NCBI GenBank assembly: GCA_963921795.1
Contig: OY997643.1
Coordinates: forward strand, 9,393,033-9,457,032
DNA length: 64,000 nucleotides
Origin: Nannobrachium achirus
Taxonomy: Eukaryota; Chordata; Actinopteri; Myctophiformes; Myctophidae
Direction: 5' to 3'
Shown: in pieces, positions 27,257-63,287 of the stretch
How positions within the stretch are numbered: position 1 is the stretch's first letter
Layout: every line of letters begins with the position of its first letter
The notes under the pieces: model-generated
What the model was told of the DNA's origin: nothing
The model's database searches: none
The model's input: the letters and a program-made list of their open reading frames with translations, nothing else
Translations under genes and position numbers: made by a program

Positions 27257-27993
27257 GCGAGGAGCTCATTCGGCTTGAGTTTCTTGCAGGTGGGATTTAT
27301 GGCTCTTTGAAGTGAGCCGAGCCGGATCTCTGCGATCCGTTCCTTTTCAAAGAGCCGTTCAAAATACTACATGTAAAAAGTACAAACATTCTTTACTACA
27401 ATGTACAAAATACACAAGTAGAAGTGTAATTAAAATGTACTTGAGTAAAAGCACTAAAGTATTGGTATCAAAATGCACAGAGTAGTTCACCCCCCAAAAT
27501 GACTTTTTTTCTATTGATTACTCGTGCCATGGAGACTTGAGTTCAATAATGTGTTGTAGACTATTTGTAGCATTCCTAAGACAAAAATATGATTATAGTA
27601 CATTTAGCCCCATATTGAATAGAAAGTACTCAATATGCAGAACGTCACATTTCACAGGTTTTCCAATTAATAACATTTGGAAAAATCATTTGAAAATAGC
27701 AGATCTACAAGCTCACAATGTGTCGCAACGTGACACATTGTGAGCTTGTAGATCGGCTAATATTTTCAAATGGCGGAAATGTATATGGCCAAAATGCAGG
27801 CCTATATAGGGTTGAAGTGATTTGTAATTATAATCAAAATCTAGAAAGTAACAAAATAACTAAAAGTAACTAAAATGAGACAGTATTTTGAACGGCTCTT
27901 TGAAAAGGAACGGATCGCAGAGATCCGGCTCGGCTCACTTCAAAGAGCCATAAATCCCACCTGCAAGAAAATCAAGCCGAATGAGCTCCTCGC
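27257..27993. mobile_element. Palindromic element nested in the GT tract
   Basis: The ends GCGAGGAGCTCATTCGGC and GCCGAATGAGCTCCTCGC are perfect inverted repeats, and the arms continue with GGGATTTATGGCTCTTTGAA. It is absent from the otherwise near-identical copy at 54936-56243, so it inserted after the two copies separated. The ACGGCTCTTTGAAA blocks relate it to the elements at 29766-30317 and 49588-50150. A hairpin repeat (27698-27758) lies near the centre. Confidence 0.8.
27698..27758. repeat. Hairpin repeat, near-perfect
   Basis: The arms AGCAGATCTACAAGCTCACA and TGTGAGCTTGTAGATCGGCT extend through an inner stem AATGTGTC/GACACATT around a 7-base loop; one mismatch in 27 pairs. Confidence 0.9.
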
Positions 27994-28974
27994 GTGTGTA
28001 CGCCCCGGACTCATTTTTGAAGCTTGTGATTGGCTGAACCGGACGTAGGGAGCGCTCCGTTGTAGTCACTTGGACCGCGCGAGGTGCACCAAAACCCAAT
28101 TATCATGGCGTTTATCGTGCGCTTGCCCAGGCCGTAAATATAACGATTGCATTCACCACGGCTTCGTAACTCGCGCGGCGCTCCGCCGGCCGCTTGCAAT
28201 GTCGTGGACAATAACTGAAAACGAGCGCTCTTTGCCGTTTCCATCCATCTTTCCCAGTTGGATCCATAATCACGCGGCACTGCACTGTCTGACTGACAGA
28301 CGAGGAGTTCATTTCATCGTATATTTTTGTTTTAAAGACTTTATATTGACATTGGTTTAAAAAAAGGCGTTGAAAAGCCGGCTATACAACGACTACACCC
28401 AGACAAATAGCTTAATGATCGGATGGCTATTGGAATCATTTTACACCAATATTTCGAGATCAGTTCTGCAACGTGGAGTTGTTTTTTTAAAGAAATGTTT
28501 ATTGAAATATGGATTAAATCTAATTGTCTAAATTCTGTGTAAATATAAACGTTGATACGGCGACTATAATTAGTTGGCTAAATCTCGGCTAGATCTAAAC
28601 TATACTTAATAATGATCAACGGATATTATAATTATGTTAGTCCAATATTAGGAGATCAGTTAAGCACCTTACTGTTGTTTTTTTTAATAAATTGTTATCG
28701 AATCATGGAATAAATTGCAAAGTATATTTTCGGTGTGAATATAACCGGAATCTAGCCGGGTGAAATTAAGGCTAAAAAAAAACTAGTCGTGTAAAAAACG
28801 ACTATTGCTCAGTGGGAGACTTGGGTAAACACTTTATTTTAGAAATCTGACGTTTGTAGCTCAAACCGTTGCGCTATGAAAACCTCACTGGTCGCTGGGT
28901 TGAGGAGGAAACATGACGGTCATGTATAACCATAAGTAGGCTATGAAGTGTTTGTGTGTAAAAGCAGTGGTTGT

Positions 28975-29582
28975 AGACTAGTCTACTTGCCAGCCCATAG
29001 AGCCCCATTGTGAACCCGGACATATTGAGTACAGTAAGGTTTTATGTTAGAAATGTTGAGTATGGGTCCCCAGCATGTAGAAACTGCCGGATGCTAACTT
29101 GCATATGTTGAGCAATTTTCATAATTTGCATAATTCGATTTATTTAGCATAATCCTCCATAATAATGGATAATATGTCAAGAACTAATTGGCCGATTTGA
29201 ACAATATTAGAGTGGTTTTGGGGGTTATTGAGGATGCGATTTTGATACTTTTTTGTTGATTTTCCAGTTGGTATATGGCCATTTCCGGTTTAAAACGGCC
29301 ATTTTGAATTTAGAAAATGACAGAAATGGATTCAGCATCCTCAATAACCCCCAAAACCACTCCAGTATTGTTCAAATCGGCCAATCAGTTTTTGACATAT
29401 TATCCATTATTATGGGGGATTAAATCGAATTATGCAAATTATGAAAATTGCTCAACATATGCAAATTAGCATCCGGCAGTTTCTACATGCTGGGGACCCA
29501 TACTCAACATTTCTAACATAAAACCTTGGTGTACTCAATATGCCAGGGTTCACATTCTGGCAAGTGGACTATAGTCTAGCAG
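28975..29582. mobile_element. Palindromic MITE, arms about 280 bp
   Basis: TAGACTAGTCTACTTGCCAG at the left is mirrored by CTGGCAAGTGGACTATAGTC at the right. The arms pair nearly throughout (e.g. CAATATTAGAGTGGTTTTGG with CCAAAACCACTCCAGTATTG). The centre is about 29280. No coding content. Confidence 0.8.
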
Positions 29583-29765
29583 TGATATTAAAACAGCAAC
29601 ACTTACTTTATATCATGTTGTGGTTCTTCTGGTGTGTTTTATAATCCAATAAATTGTCCAGATGTTAAATTCACTTTATTGTGTCTGATCAAAACGCTTC
29701 CTTCCTGTGTTTGTTGGAGGAATTAGCGTCACAGTTGATCCTCCTCCTCTCGGTCCTCTGAGTTA

Positions 29766-30317
29766 GAGATGGGACGTTCGTGAACGAATCGAGTCTTTTG
29801 AACGGCTCTTTGAAATGAACAATGGGATCCGGTTCGCAGTAGGGAGCCGTTCTTTTCTAAATGAACAGTTGTGGAGAAAAATACAAACATTCTTTACTTA
29901 TCTAAACGCATCAACACTGCCACAATTAGAAGTTTGGAATTAAAATGTAGGCCATGTAAGTAAAAGTAGGCCTACAACATTTTCGGTATCAAAATGCACT
30001 TAAAATACCAATGGTACAAAATAGTCATTATGCAGAATGTCCCATTTCACAGTTTTTCCAATGTAGAAAATGTAGAAAAATTATTTGAAAATAGCAGATC
30101 AACGCGACGCATTGTGAGCTTGTAGATCTGCTATTTTCAAATGGCAGGCATGTACCTATATATGTCCGAAATAATTGTATTTAGGGTTGAAGTGATTTGT
30201 AATTATAATCAAAATCTACAAAGTAACTATAGTATCTAAAATGAGCCAGTCTTTTGAACGGCTCTTTGAAAGGAACGGATCCCAGAGATCCGGCTCACTT
30301 CAAAGAGCCATAAATCC
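29766..30317. mobile_element. hAT-like element (TAGAGATGGGA end)
   Basis: It starts TAGAGATGGGACGTTCG, fitting the TAGAG-type terminus of hAT elements, and ends CCATAAATCCCAG. Both ends carry GTCTTTTGAACGGCTCTTTG in direct orientation, with the inverted form nearby. A shortened hairpin repeat lies at 30091-30134. A related copy is 49588-50150. The target duplication is not legible. Confidence 0.6.
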
Positions 30318-30714
30318 CAGTCAGGGAAGGCAGTGAAACCTAACGGCCGGGGGGCGTGCCGCGTGCCTCCTCTTTGTAACAACAACATGAGTAAACAACA
30401 AACAAGCTGACGACAGTAAAACTACTGTTACTTATTATCACTAATAAGAGCTGTTTTCTTTTTAAAATAATTATAAACTTCATTATTACAGAACTCTACT
30501 TTGTCAGGACCCCCATGTGGCACAATGCAGTCCTACACGTGTGATATTTGGTTCTTTAATAGACTAAAAATAAAAGCCATTTCTGTTGTCTTTCTGTGTG
30601 AAAGTCTGTTGACAGTCTGACTGGACTACAAACAGTGAACACACACAGGTGTTTCTGCTTGGACCATCCCTGATAGCTTATTATTATTTATACCCACCTT
30701 GTTTCTACTTAAAT
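30318..30714. other. Gene-free interval
   Basis: AT-rich non-coding sequence. I see no exon, repeat family or RNA gene here. Confidence 0.4.
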
Positions 30715-31849
30715 TAGTTAGGGGAGAGCGGGGTAAACTGAGACACTTTTTACACTTGCTCCCCTCTAGGCGAACTAAACGATATATCAGTAAAAATGTA
30801 CTTCTACCACTTTTTCTAGTCACATGTTCAAATACTGGATTCTGATTGGCTAAATTCCGGAGGTTATGGCAGAACAACCGCCGCAGTTGTGTGAGGACGA
30901 GATCAATGCGCCTCAGTGTACATCCGGGGACTTCAGGAGGTAGTCGGAACACCTTTCCCCCAACCAACATATGACGGTCGTAGCGGTCCTATGTTTACTA
31001 ACGTGCGTACGACGTCGCCGATTTATTTGGATCCAATGCAATCCGCCAACTTTAAAGCCCCTTTTCTCTGAACCTATGCCTTTCTGGAAGCGAACAGCCT
31101 CTATTTACGTCCGGAACGGTCCTTCTAACTGACGTTAGCTTAGCTGTATGCTAGACATCTTTCTCTGCATGGAGTTGGCGTCATCTGGTGGTGAGTAGAA
31201 GATGTTGTTTGTGGAACTATTTGCTGTCGTCACGGAAGTTTTATAGGCAATAATGATTGTAACTTAATATCCTTGCAAGTTACAACTATGTGTTTTCTTT
31301 CATGTATACGGAAAAAAGTGGTAGAAAAGCTATTTACCACTCGGGGTCGGACATTATGCTCTGATAATGTCCTGTGTGAGGGTGTTATCGGACTCGGCTT
31401 CGCCTCGTCCGATCACCCCCTCACACAGGACATTATCAGAGCATAATGTCCTCTCACTCGGGGTAAATTGCTTACACATTTCCCAGTAATTTGGGATGTT
31501 TCCTAACAATGGAAGTTATCAGAACATATTATTCAAGACAAAAGGCAGAGAAAATATGATTGTTTTAAAAAGAAAGTGGTCTTGTGTCTCAGTTTACCCC
31601 AGGACCGGGGTAAACTGAGACAGACCAGAGAAATCAACAGGGTAAAGTGATCCACTCACTTTTTTCACTTTAAAACTACCATAAAAACGCAAAAACCCGG
31701 TTAACCGGGTTAAATATGCGCAATACAAAAATGTACATAGCAGACATTCTTTTAATAGGGTTTGTCCTGTCATTTCCACCCATGTGTCAAATAATGTGAC
31801 ACATGGGCGGAAGGAAAAAACTAAAAACCCTATAAAAAATTGATAAAAG
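30715..31849. repeat. Inverted-repeat region (GGGGTAAACTGAGAC) with inner palindrome
   Basis: GGGGTAAACTGAGACACTTTT near 30730 is mirrored by GTGTCTCAGTTTACCCC near 31590, suggesting an old inverted-repeat element of about 0.9 kb. Inside, 31352-31450 is a strong palindrome (GGACATTATGCTCTGATAAT pairing with ATTATCAGAGCATAATGTCC). The open frame at 30626-30970 is not recognisable. Confidence 0.5.
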
Positions 31850-33396
31850 TGTTTACCAAACTTTCCTCAGTTGATCCTTATGTAATCTTTCCTGTAGAAT
31901 CTATTTCTGCAAAGTATATTGTTGTATTGTGCATAACTAATGAAATAATTAGCATATTAGTTAGATCAAAAATGGCAGTTCCGTGACCGTGGAGAGCAAA
32001 GGTCTGTTTCTCAATGGATTTGTCATCTAGAAGGGTTATTAAACACATTTGGCCGGGGTGTCTTTTTTAAAAGGGTCGGGAATTTTTTTTAGAGCCCAAA
32101 ATCCAAATTGGCTACAATCAGCTATGACGAAATTGAACTTTTCAATGGTTTGACCTACAGTTATGAATACAACTAGTTTTCTGTGACTTTTTGGGTTGAG
32201 GAATCCATAATTGATGTTAATTTAATGATTTAACCTGTTTTCAAACTTCTGATCCAAGATGGCTGCCGACTATCGGCTCTGAAAGGTCATTTTTTTTTAC
32301 ATTGTCATAGAACCTTCATATTAGGCTCTAATGAAAGCTCTGCTCAAGCTAAAGCTAGTACAACTAACATAATGACACAGAGGTCTTCTCAAAGGTCATC
32401 TCAAAGGTCAAAAAGGTCACTGTTGTCTTATACAGTGATTATTTATCAAACTAATAGACTTCTACACTTCATCGGAATCTGTTGATTCTCCACACTGGCT
32501 CCACTCATCATCAGTACTACTGTCATCTGAAGAGTGACAAGGTGGGAGCTGCTGGGGCAAAGGGTGGGAGGGGGGGGGGGGGGGGGTATGATGCACTGGT
32601 CAGCACTTCCCATTCACAAGTTCCCAACCATAACCAAGGGGTAAGGGATGCTCTACCAGGTTGTAATGGAGCTGGCAAAATGTAAGGTTGTCCTTTCAAG
32701 ATAAAGATTCAGTGAGTCATCATCAGGTGGAGGACAAAGTGTAAATTGTTTTAAATTGCCACTTTGAAGCTTTGACTTCCCCACAGGTAACTAGACCAGG
32801 TCAACCTGGTTGTGCCAGACCCCGGTTCTGCCAACCCTCTGGGCCTATAAATTTAATGGTACATTAAATTGTCTGTCATCATCCCCCTGTCTGTCATCAT
32901 CATTTATGACATCATGCCTTTTGTAGGCATGTCATCATCATGTCATCATCATATATACCCTTTATATAGAAAACCCGGACAGACCGACATTTGCTTATGT
33001 AGGCCTACCCATTTCATGGGTCTGGCAATAACTGCACTCACCATAGACGACAAAGAGGACACATACTTTCAAGTCTCCTCTGACATCTTCTAACTCTTGC
33101 CTCAGGATCAGACATCACCTTCTAACACTTTCTTATATAGTAGCCCTTTCATGGACCGGCTAAAGTGCCATGGCATACACCATGACTATGGGAGGTGGAT
33201 GTCAGATTATTTGCCAACATAGCCTCGGCAAATCTGTACCTTTTCTTTTTTGGGGGGAGGGATGGGGGGCAGATTGGCCTGGTATCAACTGCCTTCATTG
33301 ATGAGGACCCATTTGAATACTGAGCTATTTGACAGGTCTTTTCCTACACTGGTAGGTCATGCACTACCTCACTAGAGGTAGTGACTGCACTTTTAG

Positions 33397-33960
33397 ATGG
33401 CCAAACTGAGGTTGAAACATTCCTTCTCGCTGTTAGCTGAAATTATCTGTACACCATCTGGTGCAATTATGAACGTGGCCCAGAAGGAGAGATTGAGGCT
33501 GTCTGCCCGGGTGGACCGATCTCTCCATCAGGGTCAATGTGCAAGACTGTTAAGATGTTTGTTAGAGTTGTTAGAGTTCTTCAACCTGGACCCAATTACA
33601 GAGGAACCAAAAGACCAGATCACCCTTGTGGACATGGGGCTGAATTGGAGGCTAGCGATCCCCACACTTGAGGACTGTGAGGCTAGGAAGAGGGATGACT
33701 CAGAGTACCCCTGGAGTGACTATCTGGATAAAATCTGTTCTGACGCCATGCTGATGTTGAAGCTGACCTACTCTCCAGCATCAAGGCTTATGAGCATGAT
33801 CGTCAAGCAGCAAAACATCCATACATCCCAAATGTTATCCTCAAGCCTGAAGAAAAGTTCCCAGGAGCTGCTGAGTTCAACCAACTCATGGTCAACTCAG
33901 GAAACAAGGTGAGATTGAAGAAGCTTGTGAAGGAAGAGTTGAAAGCAAAAGTTTGTCAGG
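33397..33960 (+). pseudogene. Transposon-borne protein gene remnant, part 1
   Basis: The open frame at 33397-33912 contains SARVDRSLHQGQCARLLRCL, VDMGLNWRLAIPTLEDCEAR and EYPWSDYLDKIC. Downstream sequence to 33960 still resembles the same protein in other frames, so the gene is interrupted. From memory such proteins are repeated many times in fish genomes as uncharacterised loci; the function is unknown. Being enclosed by ~700-bp inverted repeats suggests it belongs to the element and is not a host gene. Confidence 0.45.
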
Positions 33961-34032
33961 TGCAGGGTGACATTGTATAGTGTGAGGGAGAAATGTCAAA
34001 TGCCCCGACAACTGGCATGACATGTAGGAACT

Positions 34033-34266
34033 ATGTCTTCAAGCATCCATTCCGAGGACACAGACGTGTATGTCCATGCAGCTTTTGTCTCACGAAAACT
34101 CAGCATGCCATCCTGCAGCCAGAAGAGGCTGCAGACACCTATCCATGTAATCACTGGCAGTGACCACACCTCAGGGTCCTATGGGCACGGAATGAGGAAA
34201 GTGATGTCTGGTCCTGAGGAAAGAGAGCTCATGTGTGAGAGTTTGGAGTTAGTAGACCTCCCATAG
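34033..34266 (+). pseudogene. Transposon-borne protein gene remnant, possible PIN/FEN-like module
   Basis: The frame reads SSIHSEDTDVYVHAAFV, then PIHVITGSDHTSGSYGHGMR. A DTDV motif followed by a G(S/C)D(x)TS...G(H/K)GxR motif recalls PIN/FEN-type nuclease folds, where acidic residues bind metal and the second motif sits before a helix-turn-helix. The likeness is by eye only. It probably continues the gene that starts at 33397. Confidence 0.35.
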
Positions 34267-34593
34267 TCATGGTTGTCATATGCCATGGAACTTTAGCCAG
34301 TCCATGAGAGAGCTACAATAAGAAAGTGTTGGCGAAGATCAAGTCTGATCCTGAGGCAATAGTTAGAAGATGTCAGAGGAGACATGAGGTCATGTGTGGT
34401 CTTCGTCATCTATGGTGAGAGTGCAGTTATTACCGGTGGGCAGGCCAGAGCTTCAAAGTGGCACATATAAGAAACAATTCACACTCCGTCTTTCTCCTGA
34501 TGATGACTCCATAACAACATGCTAGAGCATCCCTTACCCCTTGGTTATGGTTGAGAACTGAATAGGCTCTATGCATATACGCCATTTTGTTCT

Positions 34594-34969
34594 ACTTCCG
34601 GGTGTCTTTCGACTTCCTTCACAGGTGTTACCGATGATACTAATGAAGGGTCTGTTCCATTCTGGTCAAACAGAGTCAGGGTGCTGATATTGTGCATGTT
34701 GGCTCACTGGAAACACTCTGCTACACCAGTGGGTCTCAAAGTGTTCTTGAGTGGGTTCCAAATGTCCCCATGCAGGTGTGTAACTCTGAGAGTGTACAAA
34801 TGTAAGCAAATGGACCTGCAAGGGTCCATTTGATTCCATTTGTTGATTCCATTTGTACAGAGTTATGGGGGTCCTTGAAATTAAAGAACCACTGTACAAA
34901 AAATCAAACAGAGCCTTAATTAGTATCATCAGTAACACCTGTGAAGGAAGTCGAAAGACACCCGGAAGT
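34594..34969. mobile_element. MITE (CTTCCGGGTGTCTTTCGAC ends) with nested hAT-like piece
   Basis: ACTTCCGGGTGTCTTTCGAC and its mirror GTCGAAAGACACCCGGAAGT bound the element; the arms include CTTCACAGGTGTTAC. Inside, 34723-34893 has CAGTGGGTCTCAAAGTG and AAAGAACCACTG ends like the hAT group at 8367 and may be a separate insertion. Confidence 0.65.
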
Positions 34970-36240: not shown

Positions 36241-37094
36241 TCAAGTGTATTATGTTATGACGGTTCAAGTGGTTAAATATCTGAAAACACAAATTGACAT
36301 GAATCCAAAATGTATAAACAATATGGAATCTATGAACAGGTTGTGGGGGTCCCTGCTTCATCTCTCGCTCAACTAAGGGGTCCTTGGCCTGAAAACGTTG
36401 AAGACCACTGCTCTGACTACACCATGTTACTTAATACACTATACTGACGGGAACTGACAGGGTAAGTAGTGTGCAGTATGGCTACAAGCAATGCATACTA
36501 CTGTATTGAGTATGCAGTGACTGACTGAGGTACTGACTAGACCGGTGCAGACTTGTTACTGACCAAACAAACTATGACACAGACAGGCTCTCCTTCCATT
36601 CAACACTTATAAAAACCAATGAGCAGGACACTGCAGGGAATTGAACCCCGTCCATAGTCAACTGTGGAACTAGGAGTTCCATACCAGTGTCTTTTGCTTT
36701 TGGATTCATTTAGGTTGAATGGATCAGTGTAGTGTGGTGTTTCACTCTGTTTCAAACTGTCACAACATGTAGAATGCATACTATGGTACTGACTAAACTA
36801 TGTTTTACCTTTTTTCGGTATGCACAGTATGGCTACAAAGAACGATGTAGTATACAGTGAGTGAGACTGACTATGGTACTGACTAAACTATAGTAGTCCA
36901 GTCAATCTGAGGTTTGACCCAAAATAAATTGCAAAAGTAATGGTTCAATGTTTTTTTTTATGATCCTTAGGGTCATCCAAATAACATATTAAAAGTTGTG
37001 AATTATATATTTAGTGGATCAAGGTAAATTCAGGGGGTTCAAGTTTGGGTCCCTTCACTTACTATACAGGAACAAAAGACCCCCCCAAAAAATC
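36241..37094. repeat. Gene-free interval with hAT-like fragment
   Basis: 36340-36410 reads GGGGGTCCCTGCTTCATCTC...GAAGACCACTG, a hAT-like end. It contains one unit of the motif tandemly amplified (in reverse) at 40735-40990. The rest is non-coding, with short repeats of ACTATGGTACTGACTAAACT. Confidence 0.45.
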
Positions 37095-38860: not shown

Positions 38861-38930
38861 AAAAATAGCAGATCTACAAGCTCGCAGCGCGGCACTCGGT
38901 GCCGCGCTGTGAGCTTGTATATCTGCTATT
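38861..38930. repeat. Hairpin repeat, near-perfect
   Basis: The arms AATAGCAGATCTACAAGCTC and GAGCTTGTATATCTGCTATT continue into a GC-rich inner stem AGCGCGGCAC/GTGCCGCGCT around TCG; two mismatches in 32 pairs. Lies in intron 1 of C1q gene 1. Confidence 0.9.
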
Positions 38931-39164
38931 TTTCAATAGCTTAAGCATTCAATAATTCTATTAAAATCCTGAATGCATTTCTCCATAAAACAATATGATC
39001 TGACATTCACTATTCAATCCAATACCTCTGAAATGTCAGTGATACAAATTATGTGTCATAATTTTAGAATTAGATCAAATCAAATCGTTTGGATCAAATC
39101 TCATGAATCACTAAAACAAATGTATTTTTTAATGTAAGCTATATTTTTTTTCATGCTAATGCAG

Positions 39165-39992: not shown

Positions 39993-40438
39993 CAGGGTTC
40001 CCCAATAGGCGGCCCGCGGGCCGCACTGTCTGGCCCCCATTAACCCCAGTAATAATGGTGGTATAAGAGCAGCAACAACATTGTCGTTGTCAGGTGGAAA
40101 CCTCGTATCTCCAAATGTGTACGTTCTTTCGCAAAGTAAAGCCCTGCTTCATCATACAAGGCCGTCGCACAAAAGTAGTGAAAACAGCCAATCTACAAGC
40201 ACACAACGCCTCGCGATGCGAGGCGTTGTGTGCTTGTAGATCGGCTGTTTTCACTAGTTTAAATCATTTATGCAAAACGAACGGTTTTGGACATACAAGA
40301 TTTTCACCCGACAACGACGATATCTGAACTGTCGCTGGAGTAGCGGGAACGCCACCGTCGACCCTGCAATGTTGTGGCCCACGGCTTGGTACCCTAGATA
40401 TAATTCGGCCCTTGGGGAAAACTAATTGGGGAACCCTG
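39993..40438. mobile_element. hAT MITE (CAGGGTTCCCC ends), copy 1
   Basis: The ends CAGGGTTCCCCAAT and ATTGGGGAACCCTG are inverted. The 8-bp target duplication GATTAGAC is perfect at 39985-39992 and 40439-40446, which identifies a hAT insertion. It has no transposase; its middle holds a hairpin repeat (40181-40250). An opposite-orientation copy is at 51550-51965. Confidence 0.95.
40181..40250. repeat. Hairpin repeat inside hAT MITE, copy 1
   Basis: 34-bp arms with one mismatch: AAAACAGCCAATCTACAAGC...CGCCTCGC, loop GAT, GCGAGGCG...GCTTGTAGATCGGCTGTTTT. Confidence 0.95.
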
Positions 40439-40990: not shown

Positions 40991-41219
40991 TAACCACCTA
41001 AACCGTCAATACCGTAAATATAACCTTTGTCGCTGTACTTGGTTCGCTCTTTATTCCCTTCAAACCAAACCTTGAAAAATCTCTACAAGCTCACACTCGC
41101 TTGAGAGCTAGATTTTACATTTTGAATGTTCCCACCAAGAATAGGGATGCAAGGTTTCAATTGGTAAAAGGAGTAGATCACCCAAAAAAATGTAGGTTTT
41201 TATTTTTTGTCACACTCAT

Positions 41220-43523: not shown

Positions 43524-45731
43524 TAGGGTGGGGGGATAAACATCAAGTTCAAAATTTGAACACACCCATTTGGGACATGATTAACACTATCAATACAAGA
43601 CTTTTGACACCAAAAGTAACTCTGTATCTTGAAAATAACCCCCCACCCCTTGAAAATCAAAAAATACCCCAAAAAGGGGCATTTTCTGCCAATTCCGCCT
43701 GGTATGCATGAGCTATTCTTAATGTTTGCCTATATACTGTTGAATAAATACTTTAAAACTCATTTGGGAATTAATAAACACAATAAATAGAAGAACTGTT
43801 ACACCTCAAAGTAACACTGTACCTTGAAAATAATCCCTCATCCCGCTTTAAAATTAAAGATAACACGAAATAATTTAGTTTTCTGGCTTTTCCACGCATA
43901 CGTAGTCCACGTATGCCGAACACGTCAACATGTACATCGCACTGGGCACGCCTGCCTTCCCCACTGGGTCTGAGTCTCGCCGTGTTACCCGTGCTCTGTT
44001 GGACTTCCTCACGTGGATGTCCCTGCAGTAGCTTCCTTGGCCTCCTGTGAGGATGGCCAAGCCTGCAAGAACCCCCAATGACTGGGGCACCCGGTGATTC
44101 TCATGAGACCGCAGTCGACACCTTGAGTCCTTGAGGGCTACTGAGAGTACTGGGTGAGACTCTGGTGTCTATGGGTGCCCCGCCATACCACACAACGGTG
44201 GGCATCCTCAGATGGTCGGCCATGGCGCGCTGGACAGGGTTCTCCTCCCGCCCTTGGTGCGACTGTCGAACTCCTCCTGCCCCCAGTGCGTCCTGACCAC
44301 GTTTTGGTGCCCGTCAGGGACTGGCCCTCGTACAGCGGGCGTGAGGGGTTGGCGACAATTTTGGCTACCCACCAGACCTGTCTTGAAACACGGACCAAGG
44401 AGTCTAACTCGTGTGTGAGTCGTAGGGCTCACTCGAAAATCGAAACCCTGTGGCACAATTAAAGTGAAGGATGGCCCAGGCTGCCCCAGCTGGGATTGTG
44501 CATGCTCCACACGATGGGACCCGAAAGATGGTGAACTATGGCTGGCTGGTCAAAGCCAGAGGAAACTTTGGTGGAGTCATGACGTGCAACTCGGTCGTCC
44601 GACCTGAGTATAGGGGCAAAAGATGAATCAAACTCTCTAACTAATTGCTCATCACACCCCATTAAAGGTGTTGGTTGATATAAACAGCAGGACCGTGGCC
44701 ATGGAAGTTGGAATCCGTTAAGGAGTGTGTAACAACCTGCCGAATCAACTAGCCCTGAAAATGGATGGCGCTGGAGCGATGGACCCGGCCGTAGTTGGCC
44801 ACGAAATGCCAATATGATGATACGCGATGAGTAGGAGGGCAGCCGCGGGTGCAGATCTTGGTGGTAGCAGCACGTGTTCAAAGGGTTCCATGTGAACCCA
44901 AGGCTCCCACTCGCCATGGCTGAGTCAGATTGGCAGGGCTGTTGTGTGCCGGGTCTTGGCTGTACTAACTATGGGGGTTACAATCACCCCTCCCGACCCC
45001 CCCCCCCCCCCCCCGAAGTGTGAAGCGCGTCTTCACGCTGCAGACCGCTGCACACAACGTCCCTCCATGTCCCTCGTGTCCCTCATGCAAGGATATTACA
45101 GGCACATGCAGAGTGGGGTGGGGTTGCTTGGGCACCTGCCCTTTTGCCTCAAAGTGCACTTTTGGATGCTAAAAACGTTTTTATTCTAAGTTATATATAT
45201 GCTAGCTACTGTACATTTCTGGTGTGAAATGGCACCATGGACCCCACAAAAAGACCACCCCCAAAATCGACACGTGCTGCAGAAGGGCCCATCTGTGTGG
45301 TTCGAACACCTGACCACTCAGTGCCCTCTGCACAGCCCTGCGTACCACTGCCTATATGGCTGAGCCAATTGGCAGGGCTGTTTGTGCGCCGGATCTTGAC
45401 TTTACTAACTATGGGGGCTACACTTGCAGTCAACCAGGAGCCATAATGCATAATGTGAATGTACTTTATTACATTATAACTTTGCAACATCTACCAGGTG
45501 AACCAAAGTCCTCTCTTAAGATTTATTTATATTTTTTTAATGAAAATTGGGGTGAAAAGTGGGAAAAAACATGTCCGATTTAGTTTTTTGGGTGGGGTGG
45601 GGGGTTTATTTCATCCTAGGTACCAACTCCCAATACAAAATATCTCCCAAATGACCCAATGCACCATCACTGAAATGGGCGTAATCATTTTCCAAAGTTT
45701 TTAATTTTAGGCCATTTATCCCCCCACCCTA
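43524..45731. mobile_element. hAT-like element (TAGGGTGGGGGGATAAA ends) nested in foldback copy 2
   Basis: The ends TAGGGTGGGGGGATAAA and TTTATCCCCCCACCCTA are perfect inverted repeats. ATACTAG is duplicated on both sides (43517-43523, 45732-45738), and the other foldback arms show the empty site ATACTAGTGAGAA. A TAGGG start and 7-8-bp duplication fit hAT. The 2.2-kb interior is GC-richer (43900-45100), holds two related segments (44915-44985, 45356-45420), and has no frame I recognise. Confidence 0.8.
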
Positions 45732-49271: not shown

Positions 49272-50295
49272 AATTAGCCGATCGCTATGCCCCTCCTAAA
49301 GCCGTGCTTGCCCAATGCCACGTTTAGCGACAGGTTACTAAGGCGGGTGCCTTGGCAAGCTGCCATGGCGGCGTGCAGCAATAGCACCCAGCTGCAGACT
49401 AACCTGCCACAAACGTCCAGGAAGAAAACAATAGCCTATACTAAAGTCAGATTAACATACAGTACACAAGTGTTACCAGTTATATTTTCTCATGAAGTGC
49501 TCCTAAATTATTCCCGTGGGTTGGTTTGTGTAGGTCAGTGCAATCCGTTCTGTTTTTGTTTCGGTGTTTGTGACACGGAAGCGAGTGGGTGGGACGTTCG
49601 CGAACGAATCGAGTCTTTTGAACGGCTCTTTGAAATGAACGATATGATTCGGTTCACAGTAGGGAGCCGTTCCTTTCTATGAACAGTGGTGGGAAAAGTA
49701 CTACATTTCTTTACTTAGGTAAACATATCAATACTGCAATCAAGTTTGGAATGTTATTAATGTAGGCTACTAGAGTAAAAGTAAAATAGTATTGGTATCA
49801 AAATGTAGGCTACTTAAAGTACCAATATTAGAACGTACTCATTATGCAGAATGTCCTGTTTCACAGGTTTTCTAATGAGTAAAATGTAGAAAAATCATTT
49901 GCAAATAGCTGATCTACAAGCTCACAATGCATCGCAACGTGACACATTGTGAGCTTGTAGATCACCTATTTTCAAATGCCAGAAATGTATCCAATGGCCA
50001 AAATGTACAGGCCTATTTGGGTGGAAGTGATTTACAATCATAATCAAAATCTACAAAGTAACCAGTAACTAAAATGAGCCAGTCTTTTGAACGGCTCTTT
50101 GAAAGGAACGGATCTCAGAGATCCGGTTCACTTCAAAGAACCATAAATCCCATCTCTATCTAGCAGCCAGACTAGCGGTACACCGATGCGCGCCGCCATG
50201 GCAGCTTGCCAAGTCTGCTGCGTTAGTAACCTGTTGCTAACTTGGCATTGGACGAGGACGGCTTTAGGAGGGGCATAGCGATCGGCTAATTGTGT
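49272..50295. mobile_element. Inverted-repeat element (AATTAGCCGATCGCTATGCC) hosting a hAT-like element
   Basis: ATTAGCCGATCGCTATGCCC at the left is mirrored by GGGCATAGCGATCGGCTAAT at the right. The ~110-bp arms include GCCTTGGCAAGCTGCCATGG-like text mirrored at 50190-50215. The hAT-like element at 49588-50150 lies inside. Confidence 0.7.
49588..50150. mobile_element. hAT-like element (GAACGGCTCTTTGAAA type), copy 2
   Basis: Same organisation as 29766-30317: GGGACGTTCGCGAACGAATC at the left, AACCATAAATCCCATCTCTA at the right, direct copies of GTCTTTTGAACGGCTCTTTG near each end, and a hairpin repeat at 49906-49970. Confidence 0.65.
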
Positions 50296-50879
50296 TAATA
50301 ACCGTGTTATTGAACAATATTCTGAACATGCACCATTTACCATTTTTATGTACATTTTGTTTGCATTTAAGTTCATAAGGTTAACATAAGTATAACTAAA
50401 TGCATTTGAAATCAAATCAAAATTTCATGATTCCAATTCAAAAATAGCAAATATAGCCGATCTGTAAGCTCAAAACGTGTCACGCTGTGCCGCGTTGATC
50501 AGCTATTTTTGCCGGAGATGATGTTTTTGCTCAACAGTAGCAATGCAATGTGGCCCTCTGGAGTGAGTGTGGAACCTCTTGCCAGTCTTTTGTGTTTCAC
50601 ACTGTCGACTAAAACTAGTTTAAATCTTACAGCATTAATTTAGGGTAATAATAATTTAAAAAAGTTACGTAACACTGTCTGTGGCTTTTAATACATATTG
50701 AACCATTAATACCATGATATTCTGCATATTAAAAACTTCTTCTTTTAGATGCATAATTATAATGTGAAAGATAATAAATTAAACATAAAATAAACAGACA
50801 TCACTGCTTTTGAATATGAGTTTATTCACCGAATGAATATGAGCATTATACAATACAATGTTTAAAGTAATGGTACAGT
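50296..50879. repeat. AT-rich interval with hairpin repeat and candidate poly(A) signal
   Basis: A diverged hairpin repeat lies at 50442-50509 (AAAAATAGC...GCTATTTTT arms). On the minus strand AATAAA occurs at 50826-50821 and could end the transcript of C1q gene 2; this is inferred from position only. Confidence 0.4.
50821..50826 (-). terminator. Candidate poly(A) signal of C1q gene 2
   Basis: AATAAA on the minus strand, ~1.17 kb beyond the stop codon at 51995; the intervening 3' region would contain two transposons and a minisatellite. No nearer AATAAA was noticed on that strand. Confidence 0.25.
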
Positions 50880-51549: not shown

Positions 51550-51965
51550 CAGGGTTCCCCAATTAGTTTTCCCCAGGGGCCGAATTATGTCTAGGGTACC
51601 AAGCCGAAGGCCACACCATGGCGACGGTGACAGTGGCGTTCCCACTACTCCGTTTTGCATTTTTCATTTTAAAAATGATTTAAACTAGTGAAAACAGTCG
51701 ATCTACAAGCACACAACACAACGCCACGCACCGCGAGGCGTTGTGTGCTTGTAGATCTGCTGTTTTCACTACTTTTGTGCGACGGCCTCGTATGATTTGC
51801 AAAAGAACGTACACATTTGGAGATACGAGATTTCCACCCGACAACGACGATATACTAGTGTTGTTGCTGCTCTTATACCACCATTATTACTGGGGTTGGT
51901 GTGGGCCAGACAGTAGCCCCCCGCGGGCCGCAAATGGCCCGCGGGCCGCCTATTGGGGAACCCTG
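51550..51965. mobile_element. hAT MITE (CAGGGTTCCCC ends), copy 2
   Basis: Inverted relative to 39993-40438, with the same ends and a perfect 8-bp duplication CTGTATAA (51542-51549, 51966-51973). The hairpin repeat lies at 51690-51768. Confidence 0.95.
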
Positions 51966-52340: not shown

Positions 52341-52452
52341 CATAAATCACAGATTAATAATAAGACCATTACTGCATCAGTATTCATCAAACATTAAAAA
52401 CTGGTCAAACATTAATCTGCCAAATGATTTAAGAAAGTGTCAAACATTGTGA

Positions 52453-52510
52453 AAATAGCTGATCTACAAGCTCACAACGCCTTGTCTTGTGAGCTTGTAG
52501 ATCAGCTATT
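52453..52510. repeat. Hairpin repeat, perfect arms
   Basis: ATAGCTGATCTACAAGCTCA and TGAGCTTGTAGATCAGCTAT pair without mismatch. Here the outer pair is T-A (GCTGATC/GATCAGC) where other copies have A-T (GCAGATC/GATCTGC), a compensated change. Confidence 0.9.
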
Positions 52511-52866
52511 CCCACTTAGCAATAGTCGTCTACTAGCCGGCTAGTCTAAATTTAGACCGAAATTAGCCCTGCTAGAATCGGTCTATTTTAGACCAAATCT
52601 ACACTTTTGGATTTTAATCCATTATTCAATAAATATTGATTCATAAACTATACATTATATATATGATCTCCAACTATTGGATTAAACTAATTAGAATTGC
52701 CATACAGTAGAGTTTATATTTAGACGTCATTTAGACAGCTAATTTTAGACCACATTTAGACGTCTAGAGTCAGCCTATTTTTAGACCCAATCTAGACCTT
52801 TGAATTTTAATCCATTATCAAATAAATATTGATTAATATGATTAATATGCATAAGTTATATATATA

Positions 52867-53085: not shown

Positions 53086-53190
53086 GATCTCCTTTTAGTT
53101 GACCGTGTACCAGTGAACTGTACTGTCATGAATCTGTACCTTTTCCTATGGAAACTTCTAATAAAGTCTTCAATCAATCAATCAATCTCT
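53086..53190 (+). mobile_element. LINE 3' tail fragment
   Basis: GGATCTCCTTTTAGTTGACC, ACTGTACTGTCATGAATCTG and CTTCTAATAAAGTCTTC followed by (AATC)n match the 3' ends of the LINEs at 11989-13053 and 22608-25030. Only ~100 bp remain, a typical very short 5' truncation. Confidence 0.85.
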
Positions 53191-55325: not shown

Positions 55326-55405
<80 letters not shown>

Positions 55406-56243: not shown

Positions 56244-56376
56244 TAGGACATGTGATCCTAAATGGAAAATGTTGCTTCTTATGAAAGAAATAACAACCAC
56301 TGCATATTATTTTGAGGTAGGAAAGACGTTTTTACCCCGAAATTCTCCTTTAAATGAAGGTTAAAATCACACCTAC

Positions 56377-56511
56377 CTGTAGATGGATTGTAGGCGTTGC
56401 CGATGTTGGTGAAGACTCTCTTATAGACCAGAGTGGTCTCAGAACTAAATGGACCAACATATGTACTACCACTAATACCCAACCCAGCAGAGAAGGCCAC
56501 CTGTGGTTTGT
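56377..56511 (-). CDS. C1q gene 2, third-from-start exon (start of C1q domain)
   Basis: A 135-nt phase 1-1 exon between acceptor TGTTGACAG and donor GTAGGT. It encodes DKPQVAFSAGLGISGSTYVG, PFSSETTLVYKRVFTNIGNA and YNPSTG, the N-terminal strands of the C1q domain with the family hallmarks VAFSA and VFTNIGNAYNPSTG. It splices in frame to 51995-52281. Confidence 0.9.
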
Positions 56512-56605
56512 CTGTCAACACAGGAACATGAAACAACTGTTAATAATACAAAACAATTCATTATGATAAACACTCAAACCTTACAATATATACTTCATTA
56601 TACCA

Positions 56606-56677
56606 AAAATAGCAGATCTACAAGCTCACAATACGTTGCAGTGCAACACATTACAGGATTGTAGATCTGCTAATTTT
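56606..56677. repeat. Hairpin repeat, imperfect
   Basis: AAATAGCAGATCTACAAGCT pairs with GATTGTAGATCTGCTAATTT across an inner stem around GTTGCAGTGCAAC. Confidence 0.75.
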
Positions 56678-56820
56678 GCTACTAGGCCTATAAAGGAAAA
56701 TGTGTTGCAGGGGGCTGTTTCACTGGACTTTCTGCCCCCTAATAACCAGTACCTTACATTCAACTATCATATATCTATAAACCATTCTATAGTTTCAATA
56801 AGGGCACTGTAGTAGGATCT

Positions 56821-59556
56821 ATTGTTACATTCTATTGTTAACACTTCATGAATATTCAGTAGGCTTACAGATATTGTTACATTATATTGTTATAACTTCA
56901 TGAATATTCAGTAGGCCTACAGATAGTGTTACATTATATTGTTATAACTTCATGAATATTCAGTAGGCCTACAGATAGTGTTACATTATATTGTTATAAC
57001 TTCATGAATATTCAGTAGGCCTACAGATAGTGTTACATTATATTGTTATAACTTCATGAATATTCAGTAGGCCTACAGATAGTGTTACATTATATTGTTA
57101 TAACTTCATGAATATTCAGTAGGCCTACAGATATTGTTACATTATATTGTTATAACTTCATGAATATTCAGTAGACCTACAGATAGTGTTACATTATATT
57201 GTTATAACTTCATGAATATTCAGTAGGCCTACAGATAGTGTTACATTATATTGTTATAACTTCATGAATATTCAGTAGGCCTACAGATAGTGTTACATTA
57301 TATTGTTATAACTTCATGAATATTCAGTAGACCTACAGATAGTGTTACATTATATTGTTATAACTTCATGAATATTCAGTAGGCCTACAGATATTGTTAC
57401 ATTATATTGTTATAACTTCATGAATATTCAGTAGGCCTACAGATATTGTTACATATTGTTATAACTTCATGAATATTCAGTAGACCTACATATATTGTTA
57501 CATTATATTGTTATAACTTCATGAATATTCAGTAGGCCTACAGATATTGTTACATTATATTGTTATAACTTCATGAATATTCAGTAGGCCTACAGATATT
57601 GTTACATATTGTTATAACTTCATGAATATTCAGTAGGCCTACAGATATTGTTACATTATATTGTTATAACTTCATGAATATTCAGTAGGCCTACAGATAT
57701 TGTTACATTATATTGTTATAACTTCATGAATATTCAGTAGGCCTACAGATATTGTTACATTATATTGTTATAACTTCATGAATATTCAGTAGGCCTACAG
57801 ATAGTGTTACATTATATTGTTATAACTTCATGAATATTCAGTAGGCCTACAGATAGTGTTACATTATATTGTTATAACTTCATGAATATTCAGTAGGCCT
57901 ACAGATATTGTTACATTATATTGTTATAACTTCATGAATATTCAGTAGGCCTACAGATATTGTTACATTATATTGTTATAACTTCATGAATATTCAGTAG
58001 GCCTACAGATAGTGTTACATTATATTGTTATAACTTCATGAATATTCAGTAGGCCTACAGATAGTGTTACATTATATTGTTATAACTTCATGAATATTCA
58101 GTAGGCCTACAGATATTGTTACATTATATTGTTATAACTTCATGAATATTCAGTAGACCTACAGATATTGTTACATTATATTGTTATAACTTCATGAATA
58201 TTCAGTAGGCCTACAGATAGTGTTACATTATATTGTTATAACTTCATGAATATTCAGTAGGCCTACAGATAGTGTTACATTATATTGTTATAACTTCATG
58301 AATATTCAGTAGACCTACAGATAGTGTTACATTATATTGTTATAACTTCATGAATATTCAGTAGGCCTACATATATTGTTACATTATATTGTTATAACTT
58401 CATGAATATTCAGTAGGCCTACAGATATTGTTACATATTGTTATAACTTCATGAATATTCAGTAGACCTACAGATATTGTTACATTATATTGTTATAACT
58501 TCATGAATATTCAGTAGGCTTACAGATATTGTTACATTATATTGTTATAACTTCATGAATATTCAGTAGGCCTACAGATAGTGTTACATTATATTGTTAT
58601 AACTTCATGAATATTCAGTAGGCCTACAGATAGTGTTACATTATATTGTTATAACTTCATGAATATTCAGTAGGCCTACAGATAGTGTTACATTATATTG
58701 TTATATCTTCATGAATATTCAGTAGGCCTACAGATAGTGTTACATTATATTGTTATAACTTCATGAATATTCAGTAGACCTACAGATATTGTTACATTAT
58801 ATTGTTATAACTTCATGAATATTCAGTAGACCTACAGATATTGTTACATTATATTGTTATAACTTCATGAATATTCAGTAGGCCTACAGATAGTGTTACA
58901 TTATATTGTTATAACTTCATGAATATTCAGTAGGCCTACAGATAGTGTTACATTATATTGTTATAACTTCATGAATATTCAGTAGACCTACAGATAGTGT
59001 TACATTATATTGTTATAACTTCATGAATATTCAGTAGGCCTACAGATATTGTTACATTATATTGTTATAACTTCATGAATATTCAGTAGGCCTACAGATA
59101 TTGTTACATATTGTTATAACTTCATGAATATTCAGTAGACCTACAGATATTGTTACATTATATTGTTATAACTTCATGAATATTCAGTAGGCCTACAGAT
59201 ATTGTTACATTATATTGTTATAACTTCATGAATATTCAGTAGGCCTACAGATATTGTTACATTATATTGTTATAACTTCATGAATATTCAGTAGGCCTAC
59301 AGATATTGTTACATATTGTTATAACTTCATGAATATTCAGTAGGCCTACATATATTGTTACATATTGTTATAACTTCATGAATATTCAGTAGGCCTACAG
59401 ATATTGTTACATTATATTGTTATAACTTCATGAATATTCAGTAGGCTTACAGATATTGTTACATTATATTGTTATAACTTCATGAATATTCAGTAGGCCT
59501 ACAGATATTGTTACATTATATTGTTATAACTTCATGAATATTCAGTAGGCCTACAG
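56821..59556. repeat. 52-bp satellite array, about 52 units
   Basis: The unit is TGTTATAACTTCATGAATAT, TCAGTAGGCCTACAGATAGT, GTTACATTATAT. Each unit contains the 10-bp palindrome TGAATATTCA and the palindrome TAGGCCTA. Two main variants (AGATAGTG and AGATATTG) occur in clusters, TAGACCTA replaces TAGGCCTA in a subset, and several units are 47 bp (TTACATATTG instead of TTACATTATATTG). GTAGGATCTAT occurs at both edges. Lies in intron 2 of C1q gene 2. Confidence 0.98.
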
Positions 59557-61319
59557 TAGGATCTATCTATCGCGGGGGACAGCGTTCCCACACTTCTCTC
59601 ACCCCCCAAAAATAATTTGGGGGTAAAAATGCTTTTTGTTTTACATTTAAAAACAACAAATTTGTAACAACAGCATAACATTACATTGTGCGACTTCAAG
59701 AGCTAATCTCTCTATTGGTCGTGAACTCGTGATGACAATGCGCAGCTACAGTGAATGCTTTAATAACATCACTCTGTTTGAGACTGCATACAGAACGTGT
59801 GTCAGCTCTAATGTTCATCAGACAGCATGGACCTCCACTCCGGCTCTGGAAACAGAGCCCTGTTTGGCTTTACTAATTAACATATGTTTTATGACCATAT
59901 ATGGAGATTCCTATATTATCAATATAAAGGACATACCGGTATCTGGGAATATCCATATTTGGTAATGCCCAAATATGGGCAAGTTTTGACATAACATTGT
60001 TGACTATCATGCAGGGGTCTCCATAATTGGTCGCATTATTGCGACCGAAGGTCGCATTATACCCTGAAAAACCTCGTTGCTTGTCTGTCCGGCTGTACAG
60101 GAAGTGATGTCACGTGTTTTTCAGTACAGGAAGTGATGTCACGTGACATCACCTTTATGCCCATATATGAGTCATTATGTACCACATCACTGTGACTCAC
60201 TGTCACTCTGTGCCACATCACTGCTCTGAAGTTGATTGCATGACAAAGCGAAAGTTGATCACAGTGATGTGGTACAGAATGACTCATATTATGGGCATAA
60301 AGGGTCACGTGACATTGTACAGAAAATGGAGGCCGAAAATGAGAATGTTAGGGTACCCCCTTATGCCCATATATGGAGATCCACAGGCATCAAACCAAGG
60401 CCCTAACTCACCAAGACCCTGCTTGGCATTACTTACGTACGTTTTATGCCCATATATGGAGTTTCCTATATTGTCAATATTAAGGACATTATTAAGGATA
60501 TTATGTTATCAATATTAAGGACATAATATGGGCGGTGTGTTCCTCCCTCTGCGTCATCAGCGCCCACACTCTAGGTGGGGTTGGCGATAGGGCCTTTCTG
60601 TGTGGAGTTTGCATGTTCTCCCCGTGTCTCCTAGGGTTGATACCCTCACAAAAACATGAACAAACTCCCCCCAGAATGACAACAACTAGAATCGTCAGAG
60701 AAACGCTGTGGTTGGCCAGATGGCCAAGAATTGGCGCGACGGTCGCATGTCACCCTGAGGTCGCATGTCACCCTGAGGTGTCTTACTAGTGAGTAACTGT
60801 TCCCATATACATCACTGGCCAGATGGCCAATGTCACCCTGAGGTGTCATAGAGGCCCTCATTTATCAATGGAGTGTAAAAAGCAACGTATTGTTTTCCCC
60901 CTAAATATTTGTGTACGGCAACATTGAAGTGGCATGTATGAACACATCCTAAACTAGAGCTGGGAGCAGTTTTTCGTCCGCCCCGAATCGACGTCCGAGA
61001 ATTAATCATTAAAATGCGTCCGACCCTTACATTTCCCACCGCTTTTCCCCCTTCTTCTTTTTCTTGAGGAAGCCGCGGATTAAACTGACTATAGTCTAGC
61101 AAACGTATTCTTATGTTCAGAGCACACAGCTTGCCTGCTTGTTACCCTTAATATGAATATTAAACCACACTGTGGCTTGTGAAAGTGTTAAAATAGTAAA
61201 ATGTAAATAGTAGGCCTATGTCGATTATTAAATAATATAAATAGTAACTGCACGACCGTCTGGTCTGACTACAGTGACTCGTTGCACAGCACACTCATCC
61301 TGCAGGTTTCTCCGTCTGG
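59557..61319. repeat. Gene-free interval with foldback hairpin
   Basis: 60139-60312 forms a long imperfect hairpin: GTGACATCACCTTTATGCCC mirrored by GGGCATAAAGGGTCACGTGAC, and ACCACATCACTGTGA by TCACAGTGATGTGGT. CCATATATGGAG-type motifs recur at about 59898, 60367 and 60456. GTCGCATGTCACCCTGAGG is duplicated near 60743-60780, and GGCCAGATGGCCAA occurs twice (60714, 60819). No exon seen. Confidence 0.5.
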
Positions 61320-61420
61320 AAAATAGCTGATCTGCAAGCTCAAAATGCACCGCGGATGCGAGGCGCTTAGTCCTGAAACATGACGGTCGTTGAGAGCTTG
61401 TAGATCAACCACTTTTGGCA
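61320..61420. repeat. Hairpin repeat, expanded centre
   Basis: AATAGCTGATCTGCAAGCTC pairs with GAGCTTGTAGATCAACCACT, with a longer, poorly paired centre than other copies. Confidence 0.6.
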
Positions 61421-61770
61421 CGGAACACCGTATTTGAGAGTGCCAGTGCCTTGGGTCGGTTGGCCTGCCCCTCTTCATTGCCCCCAGCACTGCCTGATTA
61501 TTTATTAGTGTGTTAGCTATACATTTTGTAGTGGATACATGTGTCAGATAGTGAGAGAATGCTGCTCCGCATGTCTACAATGTAACAAAGTGGTATAAGA
61601 TGAATCCTACACCACCTCTGAACTTGAGGTGAGATCTGATCCTACCCTACGCCAACGTCAAAGTAACAATGCCTTGATAAATGCAGACATTTGCCTACAT
61701 TTCGTTGGACTTGGACGCCAAAAAATCTATCTGCACTACGTTGATAAATGTGAGAAAAATGGGTACTTAC

Positions 61771-61842
61771 TCCTCAGTTCCTCCACTTGGGTCTGTACGG
61801 TGGACACTTGGGTCTGTACGGTGGCCAGCTGAGCAAGGTGGG
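61771..61842 (-). CDS. C1q gene 2, exon 2 (coiled coil)
   Basis: A 72-nt phase 1-1 exon between acceptor TTATTTCAG and donor GTAAGT. It encodes HLAQLATVQTQVSTVQTQV then EELR. Two 7-residue units (VQTQVST, VQTQVEE) are also visible as a 21-nt DNA duplication, i.e. a heptad added to the coiled coil. The signal-peptide exon was not found up to 64000 and should lie further right. Confidence 0.8.
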
Positions 61843-61940
61843 CTGAAATAATACAACATGCATATATGAAATCATTCATTAATACTCACACAGGTAATAT
61901 TAACGTTAATTAACATTAAATTAAGTAATTTTCAACTCTC

Positions 61941-62080
61941 CTGTAAGGTTCCATTTGTACACTCTCAGAGTTACAGACCCATAAGGGTCCATTTGGTTGC
62001 ATTTGTACACTCTCAAAGTTACAGACCCATAAGGGTCCATTTGGTTGCATTTGTACACTCTCAGAGTTACAGACCCATAA
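61941..62080. repeat. 48-bp tandem repeat, 3 units, interrupted
   Basis: Units of GTACACTCTCAGAGTTACAG followed by ACCCATAAGGGTCCATTTGG. The third unit is broken by the element at 62081-62681 and resumes at 62682. Confidence 0.85.
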
Positions 62081-62681
62081 CCCAGTGAGCACTAGACCCC
62101 ATCTAGCCGTCTGGTTTCTGGTTAGACCTCATTTCAACCGGTTGAAATGAGGTCGAAACATAGACCAAATCTAGCCCATCGCAATTAATGCATTATTCTA
62201 CTATAGTCGATGAAAAAAACACATTTAATATAGACACCTGACTTTCAAATATTGGACTAAAATACTTTTAAGAGCCAATGATCAATATATGGTCTAGTTA
62301 GTTTTAGCCACGATGTATACGTTTATAGTTCAACCATATTTCACCGTCATGGTTTATACCATTTTTAAACCATTAATAATTTATATTGATGTTGTGCAAA
62401 TGTATCATTATCGGATGCTAATATTATGGATTAATTGATTAGATCTCACTGTTATAGCTAAATAATGGCATATATTGGTCTCAAAACCAAGAAATTGTGT
62501 TTTTTAACCCTGCCCTCATTTTTCACTACTTTCGGCGGCCGCTAAAGGCGAAATGTAGCCATTTAAATGACGTTGATACAATGTCTAGTCTATGTATAGA
62601 CGTTGAAAAAAATTGCCAATCTAAACCCTTGATAAACTAGTTTTAGCTAGACGTCATTTAGCCCTCAAATTGCTCGTTGGG
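62081..62681. mobile_element. 601-bp element of the CCCAGTGAGCA family, 2-bp TSD
   Basis: The ends CCCAGTGAGCACTAGACC and ...TGCTCGTTGGG are inverted. AA is duplicated (62079-62080, 62682-62683), and the neighbouring repeat units give the empty site ACCCATAAGGGTCC. It shares the subterminal GCGGCCGCTAAAGGCGAAAT segment with the element at 26767 (there GCCGTTAGCGGCCG in reverse). Confidence 0.85.
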
Positions 62682-63287
62682 AAGGGTCCATTTGGTTTCA
62701 AGACACTGTATACAGTATTGTTATTATCAGTCCAGAAGACACATTTTAGACCAATACAAATACTCAGTTGATGGAAGACTTGCTCAATTCTTCTGAAGTA
62801 CTTTGTCATGTAAAAGTACAAAAGTATTGGCATAAAAGTTTTTAAAAAGTAGTAAAAAGTATGCATTTCAAAACGTATTAAAATCATTTGCAAAAAGCCC
62901 AAGTATACTGTATAGAGGGCTGACGGGGTTAATGTATGTGTTGTATGTTCAATTACCTTTTACCCACAAATCGACATAGAACTGCACCTACAGAAAAAAA
63001 TAACAGATCTACAAGCTAACAATGGCGTGTAGGCTTTAACCATATAGCTTAGCAAAAAATAGCAGATCTACATACTAGCTCACCGTGTGCCACGTTGCAA
63101 CAACTGGGCTTGTAGATCTTTTATTTATTTATTATTATTTATTTTTTCATGCTCCAGACTTCAAACCTACTGCAAGTCGAGAGCCCCTTCCCAATTCGGG
63201 GTTTAGACACTATTAAGTGCAGGTTTCAAGTGCGATGACGTCACAGGGGCGCGCCGAGTGATGTCCTATTTTGTAGACCCCTTCAAA
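62682..63287. repeat. Gene-free interval with hairpin copies
   Basis: A lone hairpin arm (TAACAGATCTACAAGCTAAC) is at 63001-63020 and a full imperfect hairpin at 63058-63128. The rest is AT-rich, non-coding. Confidence 0.5.

Follow-up and report, generated by a model that had tools for sequence, protein, structure and literature searches.

The stretch analysed here (hereafter the window) comprises the 64,000 nucleotides at positions 9393033-9457032 of contig OY997643.1 of Nannobrachium achirus, in which a short palindromic unit recurs, often within miniature inverted-repeat transposable elements (MITEs) of the hAT type, and many of its copies fold into one long hairpin. If up to 3 mismatches are allowed, its core arm, GATCTACAAGCTCACAA, has 39 matches in the window, whereas 100 shuffles gave 0.22 on average and never more than 2. 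In the 1.66 Gb genome searched, paired exact arms spaced by 5-30 bp have T-A as the twelfth pair of the arm at 18,411 sites and A-T at 20,710, while this position is mismatched in 329 (171 + 158) of 39,450 paired sites; these counts take exact arms alone and leave decayed copies uncounted, and reversed-pattern controls gave 0 paired arms in the whole genome. The original prediction, made from the letters of the window, had listed the places of the arms, and arms do lie at or near all of them (at most 14 bp off). The list is not one of independent copies, because it includes duplicated blocks with the same flanks, namely 4260 (with 13780), 6653/9803/16970/18628 and 9003 (with 11580 and 20504); the single arms at 7027/10180/17347/19004 are repeats of one block as well.

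The common core, as read from 50 genomic T-A copies (the first on contig C1 among the matches listed, picked by exact arms), is AAAATAGC-N-GATCTACAAGCTCACAA-8 bp-3 bp followed by its mirror. The unit reaches beyond the arms first described, in the form AAAATAGC-N-GATC...GATC-N-GCTATTTT, and measures 77 bp where its ends are GTG...CAC. Among these 50 listed copies the distance from GATC to GATC is exactly 53 nt in 38, and conservation drops at about the tenth letter going outward from GATC. In the family designated host E the unit consists of 37+3+37 = 77 bp, GTGAAAACAGC...GCTGTTTTCAC, between TA and TA, and thus has two long inverted arms around a tiny middle, as in MADE1.

Hosts A, B and E are hAT MITE families with CAG-type inverted ends, differing in the end sequence, and with 8-bp target duplications. 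Host A has the ends CAGTGGTG...CCACCACTG, host B begins with CAGNGGTCTTCAACG and host E with CAGGGTTCCCCAAT. The two copies of the target duplication match at 8/8 positions in the host-A copies L002, L003 and L020 and in both window copies of host E, and at 7/8 in the host-B copies L009 and L014; one host-A copy (L005) has none (2/8). An H-type element in L074 (CAGNGGTTCTCAAA), which holds a hairpin with a shortened tip, also shows a duplication (7/8). The claim that the hairpin occurs outside a single parent transposon is thus confirmed, with at least three hAT MITE families as hosts. In copies of hosts A, B and E, the relative position of the hairpin along the host ranges from 0.29 to 0.59. 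Clustering by flanks placed the 50 T-A copies in groups of 21, 9, 5, 4, 2 and 2, with seven singles; by eye, the group of 21 consists of 18 host-B and 3 host-M copies, those of 9, 5 and 4 are hosts A, K and D, and one of the singles, L011, belongs to host A as well. Of the A-T form, 39 of 40 copies (taken from at least 50 among the matches listed) lie in host E, 36 by flank anchor and 3 by eye via the other flank, and one was left unassigned. The copy number of the hairpin arises mainly via hitchhiking in hAT MITEs.

The unit has sharp edges in host E, where the filled site reads AAAAGTA-77 bp-TAGTTT; of 23 copies lacking the hairpin, 18 have AAAAGTAGTTT, in which TA stands a single time (one of the 18, L086, has a further deletion adjoining the site); in this host alone, TA, TAG or TAGT fit equally as the duplicated flank. 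Where an arm ends exactly in CAC, TA comes next in 59 of 63 cases in the A-T sample (80 arms), nearly all from one host and hence not independent, and in 5 of 6 cases in the T-A sample (100 arms), all 5 in host D. In host M, TA stands on both sides in 5 of the 6 copies still carrying the hairpin, and hosts M and E agree up to TA-GTG...CAC-TA, with nothing evident further out (by eye); TA is found on both sides in host D as well. Among the three explanations originally offered, the very small mobile hairpin is accordingly the best supported, amended to a unit with sharp edges and TA in E and with TA in D and M; its targeting of palindrome centres was not demonstrated. A BLAST match between L013 and L017 (1456-1571) spans 116 bp (96%) around the hairpin, with flanks differing on both sides, and is possibly a further small mobile unit.

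The palindrome is lost repeatedly across hosts. In host A, for which a joined-flank query gave 44 matches, 32 of them contiguous-looking and 24 of these read, deletions of 58-86 bp cover the palindrome, with 23 distinct pairs of end points in 24 copies (scripted fit), some ends lying within an arm (L049, L054) and others well outside (L061, L065). In host M (8/8 matches read), one copy of eight is precise (L139) and most of the rest keep remnants of arms or ends. The precise hairpin-less copies of host E described above come from 22 of 31 joined-flank matches and two partial matches; as the joined queries were built at the expected site, the proportions in E and M are biased towards precise junctions. 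Precision of loss tracks the flanking direct repeat, which is TAGT in E (18/23), TA in M (1/8) and not evident in A, where no junction is common, and therefore slippage or end joining at the palindrome is favoured over a transposase. Active, footprint-leaving excision by a transposase is accordingly a quite unlikely cause of the loss in host E. Such excision would agree with the many precise losses and with the extra letters, GTA repeats or GTGAG, found exactly at the site in L081, L084, L091 and L092, which may be excision footprints or repeat slippage; however, three of these insertions (L081, L084, L092) consist of GTA repeats, remnants of arms or ends are common (L076, L094, L135, L137, L138, L141, L142), and precision falls with the flanking repeat. 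Isolated arms that were read resemble deletion products (by eye). Some hairpins lack the tip and keep matching arms (L143, L144, L016:2168, L074:2347), which a deletion running from a self-complementary word (AGCT, for example) in one arm to its counterpart in the other might explain.

On a tree of 51 host-E copies (28 filled and 23 empty) copies switch between the two states 15 times or more, and neither of the states forms one clade (approximately unbiased test, p 0.0009 for filled and 0.0003 for empty), with the qualification that the alignment is only about 110 bp long and that conversion between copies could also mix the states. The tree excludes L179 and eight diverged copies of an E subfamily, L162 and L170, which have no anchor, and seven copies whose insert could not be trimmed by script. 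The mean distance is 0.221 among filled copies and 0.114 among empty ones. An earlier small tree, with 6 filled copies (4 of them hits of the query) and 23 empty ones, had seemed to favour the empty site of host E as the ancestral state; this was rejected, as in the larger sample the filled copies are more diverse and both states are mixed. The reading of the hairpin as a mere ancestral module, once taken from host A, was also abandoned.

The arms decay mostly one at a time. Of 575 pairs in 23 copies selected otherwise than by exact arms, 474 show the consensus on both sides, 78 have a change on a single side, 21 have changed in a matching way on both and 2 have changed on both without pairing; at least 11 of the 21 are family states shared within E and H. 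Two-sided changes thus exceed chance, but as a few founder events: since the A-T form belongs to host E, the compensated change is one event, multiplied. Among the 38 of 50 listed copies that measure 53 nt, to which this comparison was restricted, the inner arms of a copy have a left-right identity of 0.773, against 0.704 after shuffling (standard deviation 0.017), a modest excess that family structure would explain. The differences between their inner arms comprise 55 transitions, mostly at CpG-type positions, and 14 transversions, and only 10 of the 38 have a perfect inner 8-bp stem. Several features of the original description change in this light. The outer 14 bp, taken to be nearly constant, are visibly decayed at 3524, 4260, 6653, 9003, 50442, 61320 and 63058. 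The compensated A-T/T-A exchange read from the copies at 52453 and 27698 concerns the position beside GATC, where A stands opposite G at 27698 and C opposite T is also common, and it therefore gives no support to compensation. The inner stems do differ between families, as proposed, while their agreement within a copy is only somewhat above that of shuffled arms.

These observations are best accommodated by a reading that we consider probable, with some reserve: the hairpin would be a TA-flanked palindromic mini-MITE that entered several hAT MITEs, hitchhiked in them, and is now decaying and repeatedly deleted. A TA-inserting transposase of the Tc1/mariner type may first have moved the unit, which would then have entered a handful of hAT MITEs at places away from their ends, where inserts do not harm transposition; its position inside the host would thus reflect survival. 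Amplified by the hAT transposase, the composite elements would have reached copy numbers in the tens of thousands, with every host family carrying the stem of its founder. A single founder per family is seen for the A-T form and presumed for the others; if each family has its founder's stem, paired differences seen between families go back to their founders and do not reflect compensation still under way. Copies that have spread decay mostly in a single arm at a time, mainly by CpG-type transitions in the inner stem, and deletion of the palindrome is exact where flanking direct repeats permit (TAGT in E) and ragged otherwise (host A).

Several points weigh against this reading. The terminal tips are not conserved, being GTG, TTG, CTG or CCR according to the family, which is unusual because a transposase must bind the tips of its transposon. 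No autonomous partner or transposase turned up, no search aimed at one having been made. Hosts A, B and K show no clear TA duplication at the flanks of the hairpin, and a clean filled/empty pair is found in host E only, in which loss is the simplest cause of the switches of state; that the unit was originally inserted there we infer from the TA repeat, and its transposition by itself is likewise inferred. Independent acquisition by all hosts is also questionable: the stretch AAGTGGTTAAT is common to hosts A and B about 40 bp outside the hairpin (by eye), and these two could have acquired it together, while D and E have a few letters in common beyond TA (AAGTA / TAGTTT) and may not be independent. 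Finally, the flanks of host K mirror each other far outside the core (GTTGCATGCTG / CAGCATGCAAC).

The mirror-like flanks of host K would agree with a palindrome that was never mobile by itself, having arisen once in a hAT MITE by inverted duplication of sequence internal to it and been exchanged between families by recombination or conversion among nested MITEs. The same is suggested by the sequence AACCACTTNAACCCTA, which by eye is common to hosts A and B and the window types 6653 and 9003 at about 25-50 bp from the hairpin, by a BLAST match that carries L009 (host B) about 40 bp past the hairpin in L001 and L007 (host A), and by the outer part AAAATAGC, common to hosts whose flanks otherwise differ. 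Such an origin is nevertheless rather doubtful, as E and M agree to their TA edges with nothing evident beyond, and the precise hairpin-less form of E retains one TA. The flanks of host K would also fit a renewal of the stem, in which one arm is rewritten from the other when replication switches template within the hairpin, giving two-sided changes and a palindrome that grows into its flank. Two-sided changes at the level of families (T-A to A-T and AATAGC to AACAGC in E; ACAAGC to ACATGC in L074) and shortened stems with matching arms (L074, L016, L143, L144) are in line with it, but one-sided changes predominate, and frequent renewal would make the transitions of the inner stem symmetric, whereas a perfect inner stem is the exception; stem renewal is thus unlikely, although it may be how a founder became symmetric.

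A structured RNA selected for its pairing, for example a precursor resembling that of a microRNA, would fold as a near-perfect hairpin, and MADE1, with the same architecture, was the source of human mir-548 (PMC1784062). A role of this kind is, however, highly improbable here, as decay is one-sided, the compensated state belongs to a single founder family instead of recurring, no Rfam match at gathering score lies at the hairpins and the whole structure is deleted recurrently. There is no sign of selection on the stem, and the explanation of the hairpin as an RNA structure under selection, one of those first considered, is not supported, the compensated T-A change being one founder state and the other changes mostly one-sided. 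A variant of the mini-MITE reading, in which the palindrome of about 77 bp is self-mobile and its perfect symmetry itself drives amplification, so that only restored perfect hairpins found new families and the unit behaves as a parasite of two arms inside transposons, appears improbable; if it held, the hairpin would either aid the multiplication of its hAT carriers or require symmetry for its own transposition.

The copies of the window and the hosts in which they lie are collected in Table 1.

Table 1. Copies of the palindromic unit and host elements in the window (positions are those of the window).
Feature	Position	Strand	Remarks
77-bp palindromic unit in host E, GTGAAAACAGCC...GGCTGTTTTCAC	40178..40254		TA at 40176-40177 and 40255-40256; inverted repeat 43 nt, 95%; filled/empty comparison
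Host E hAT MITE, 446 bp, ends CAGGGTTCCCCAAT / ATTGGGGAACCCTG	39993..40438		8-bp target duplication GATTAGAC; hairpin at 0.50 of length
Further unit in host E, longer by 5 bp, with the A-T arm pair	51688..51769		
Host E hAT MITE, 416 bp	51550..51965		8-bp target duplication CTGTATAA
Host-A hairpin (hAT MITE family CAGTGGTG...CCACCACTG)	27693..27763		within nested structure 27257-27993
Host-A hairpin	49902..49972		
Host-A-type copy, left arm mostly deleted	30091..30137		
Hairpin with different inner stem (GCGCGGCAC)	38862..38932		host H, GGACCCCC-rich, hAT-like by sequence
Hairpin with shortened tip, 43 nt GATC to GATC	52449..52515		
Hairpin with one decayed arm	56606..56676		
Decayed hairpin, changes mostly one-sided	3518..3588		
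Decayed hairpin	4254..4324		duplicated block at 13771-13841
Decayed hairpin	6650..6720		block repeated at 9798-9868, 16963-17033, 18620-18690
Decayed hairpin	9005..9072		block repeated near 11574-11641, 20498-20565
Single left arm, other arm missing	7021..7046	+	repeats at 10174, 17341, 18998
Strongly shortened hairpin in diverged host-B element	41075..41116		
Decayed hairpin	50450..50509		
Decayed hairpin, enlarged middle, host-C-type left flank	61320..61415		
Decayed hairpin	63056..63127		second, single arm at 63003

Apart from the hairpins, Rfam gave two matches in the window, neither at a hairpin. One is a mascRNA-menRNA match at 36627-36691 on the minus strand (44.4 bits, gathering score 42.5), and the letters AAAAGCAAAAGACACTGG upstream of it resemble the A-rich tract that precedes mascRNA in MALAT1; the other is a fragment of 28S ribosomal RNA at 44634-44783 on the plus strand (134 bits, model positions 1186-1340). 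No tRNA genes were found in the window. Elsewhere in the genome, L016:1075-1855 is an interrupted palindrome of about 780 bp, with an outer arm that reads tRNA-like (GGCGGCATAGCTCAGGGGTAGAG) and a host-D element in its middle.

A single genome contains at least 39,121 palindromes whose 17-bp arms are exact, many of them in host families of known structure, and intact, tip-trimmed, one-armed and precisely deleted versions coexist there. The stability of a palindrome in the germline of an animal is thereby open to direct measurement, as regards its rate, its end points and its dependence on flanking repeats. The system further illustrates that the founders of families can easily mimic the covariation of an RNA, and that a tiny insert can gain a very high copy number as a passenger. 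What is unusual is the spread over several hosts together with the natural series of deletions; the abundance is very high, and the kind of element is already known.

The earlier remark that no named fish repeat fits this description was checked by strings alone, and four of 14-17 bases were found in no open-access full text; other literature searches brought up nothing on this repeat. A microbial or viral source was discarded, since 8 viral and 17 prokaryotic stretches have one exact arm match each, which is the chance level (mismatched partner arms were not sought). In the European anchovy genome, of 24 chromosomes, hAT elements are among the most abundant DNA transposons and TcMar ranks third (PMC13403563).

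The closest known counterpart in architecture is MADE1, whose target is TA. It is a non-autonomous, mariner-derived human element of 80 bp, with two 37-bp repeats around 6 bp (PMC1784062), and the unit resembles it in length (77 bp), in its two 37-bp arms with a short middle (here about 3 bp) and in being a near-perfect palindrome. The likeness is architectural, and there are differences: the parent of MADE1 is known (Hsmar1), the sampled copies are here mostly passengers in repeats, including hAT MITEs, the tips vary by family, and recurrent deletion is documented. The unit may thus be called MADE1-like in architecture, but we do not assign it to that family, because its tips are variable and a parent transposon is not known. 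With hAT MITEs, hosts A, B and E and an H-type element have in common the CAG-type terminal repeats and the 8-bp target duplications; these elements are the carriers, whereas the palindrome is an inner module common to families with different ends and missing from many A and E copies. Palindromes are known to provoke deletion, in which short direct repeats at the hairpin base allow slippage. The losses described here likewise span the palindrome and often have end points that follow direct repeats or short matches, but they are a series that arose naturally in the many copies of a single large genome and not the outcome of a reporter construct.

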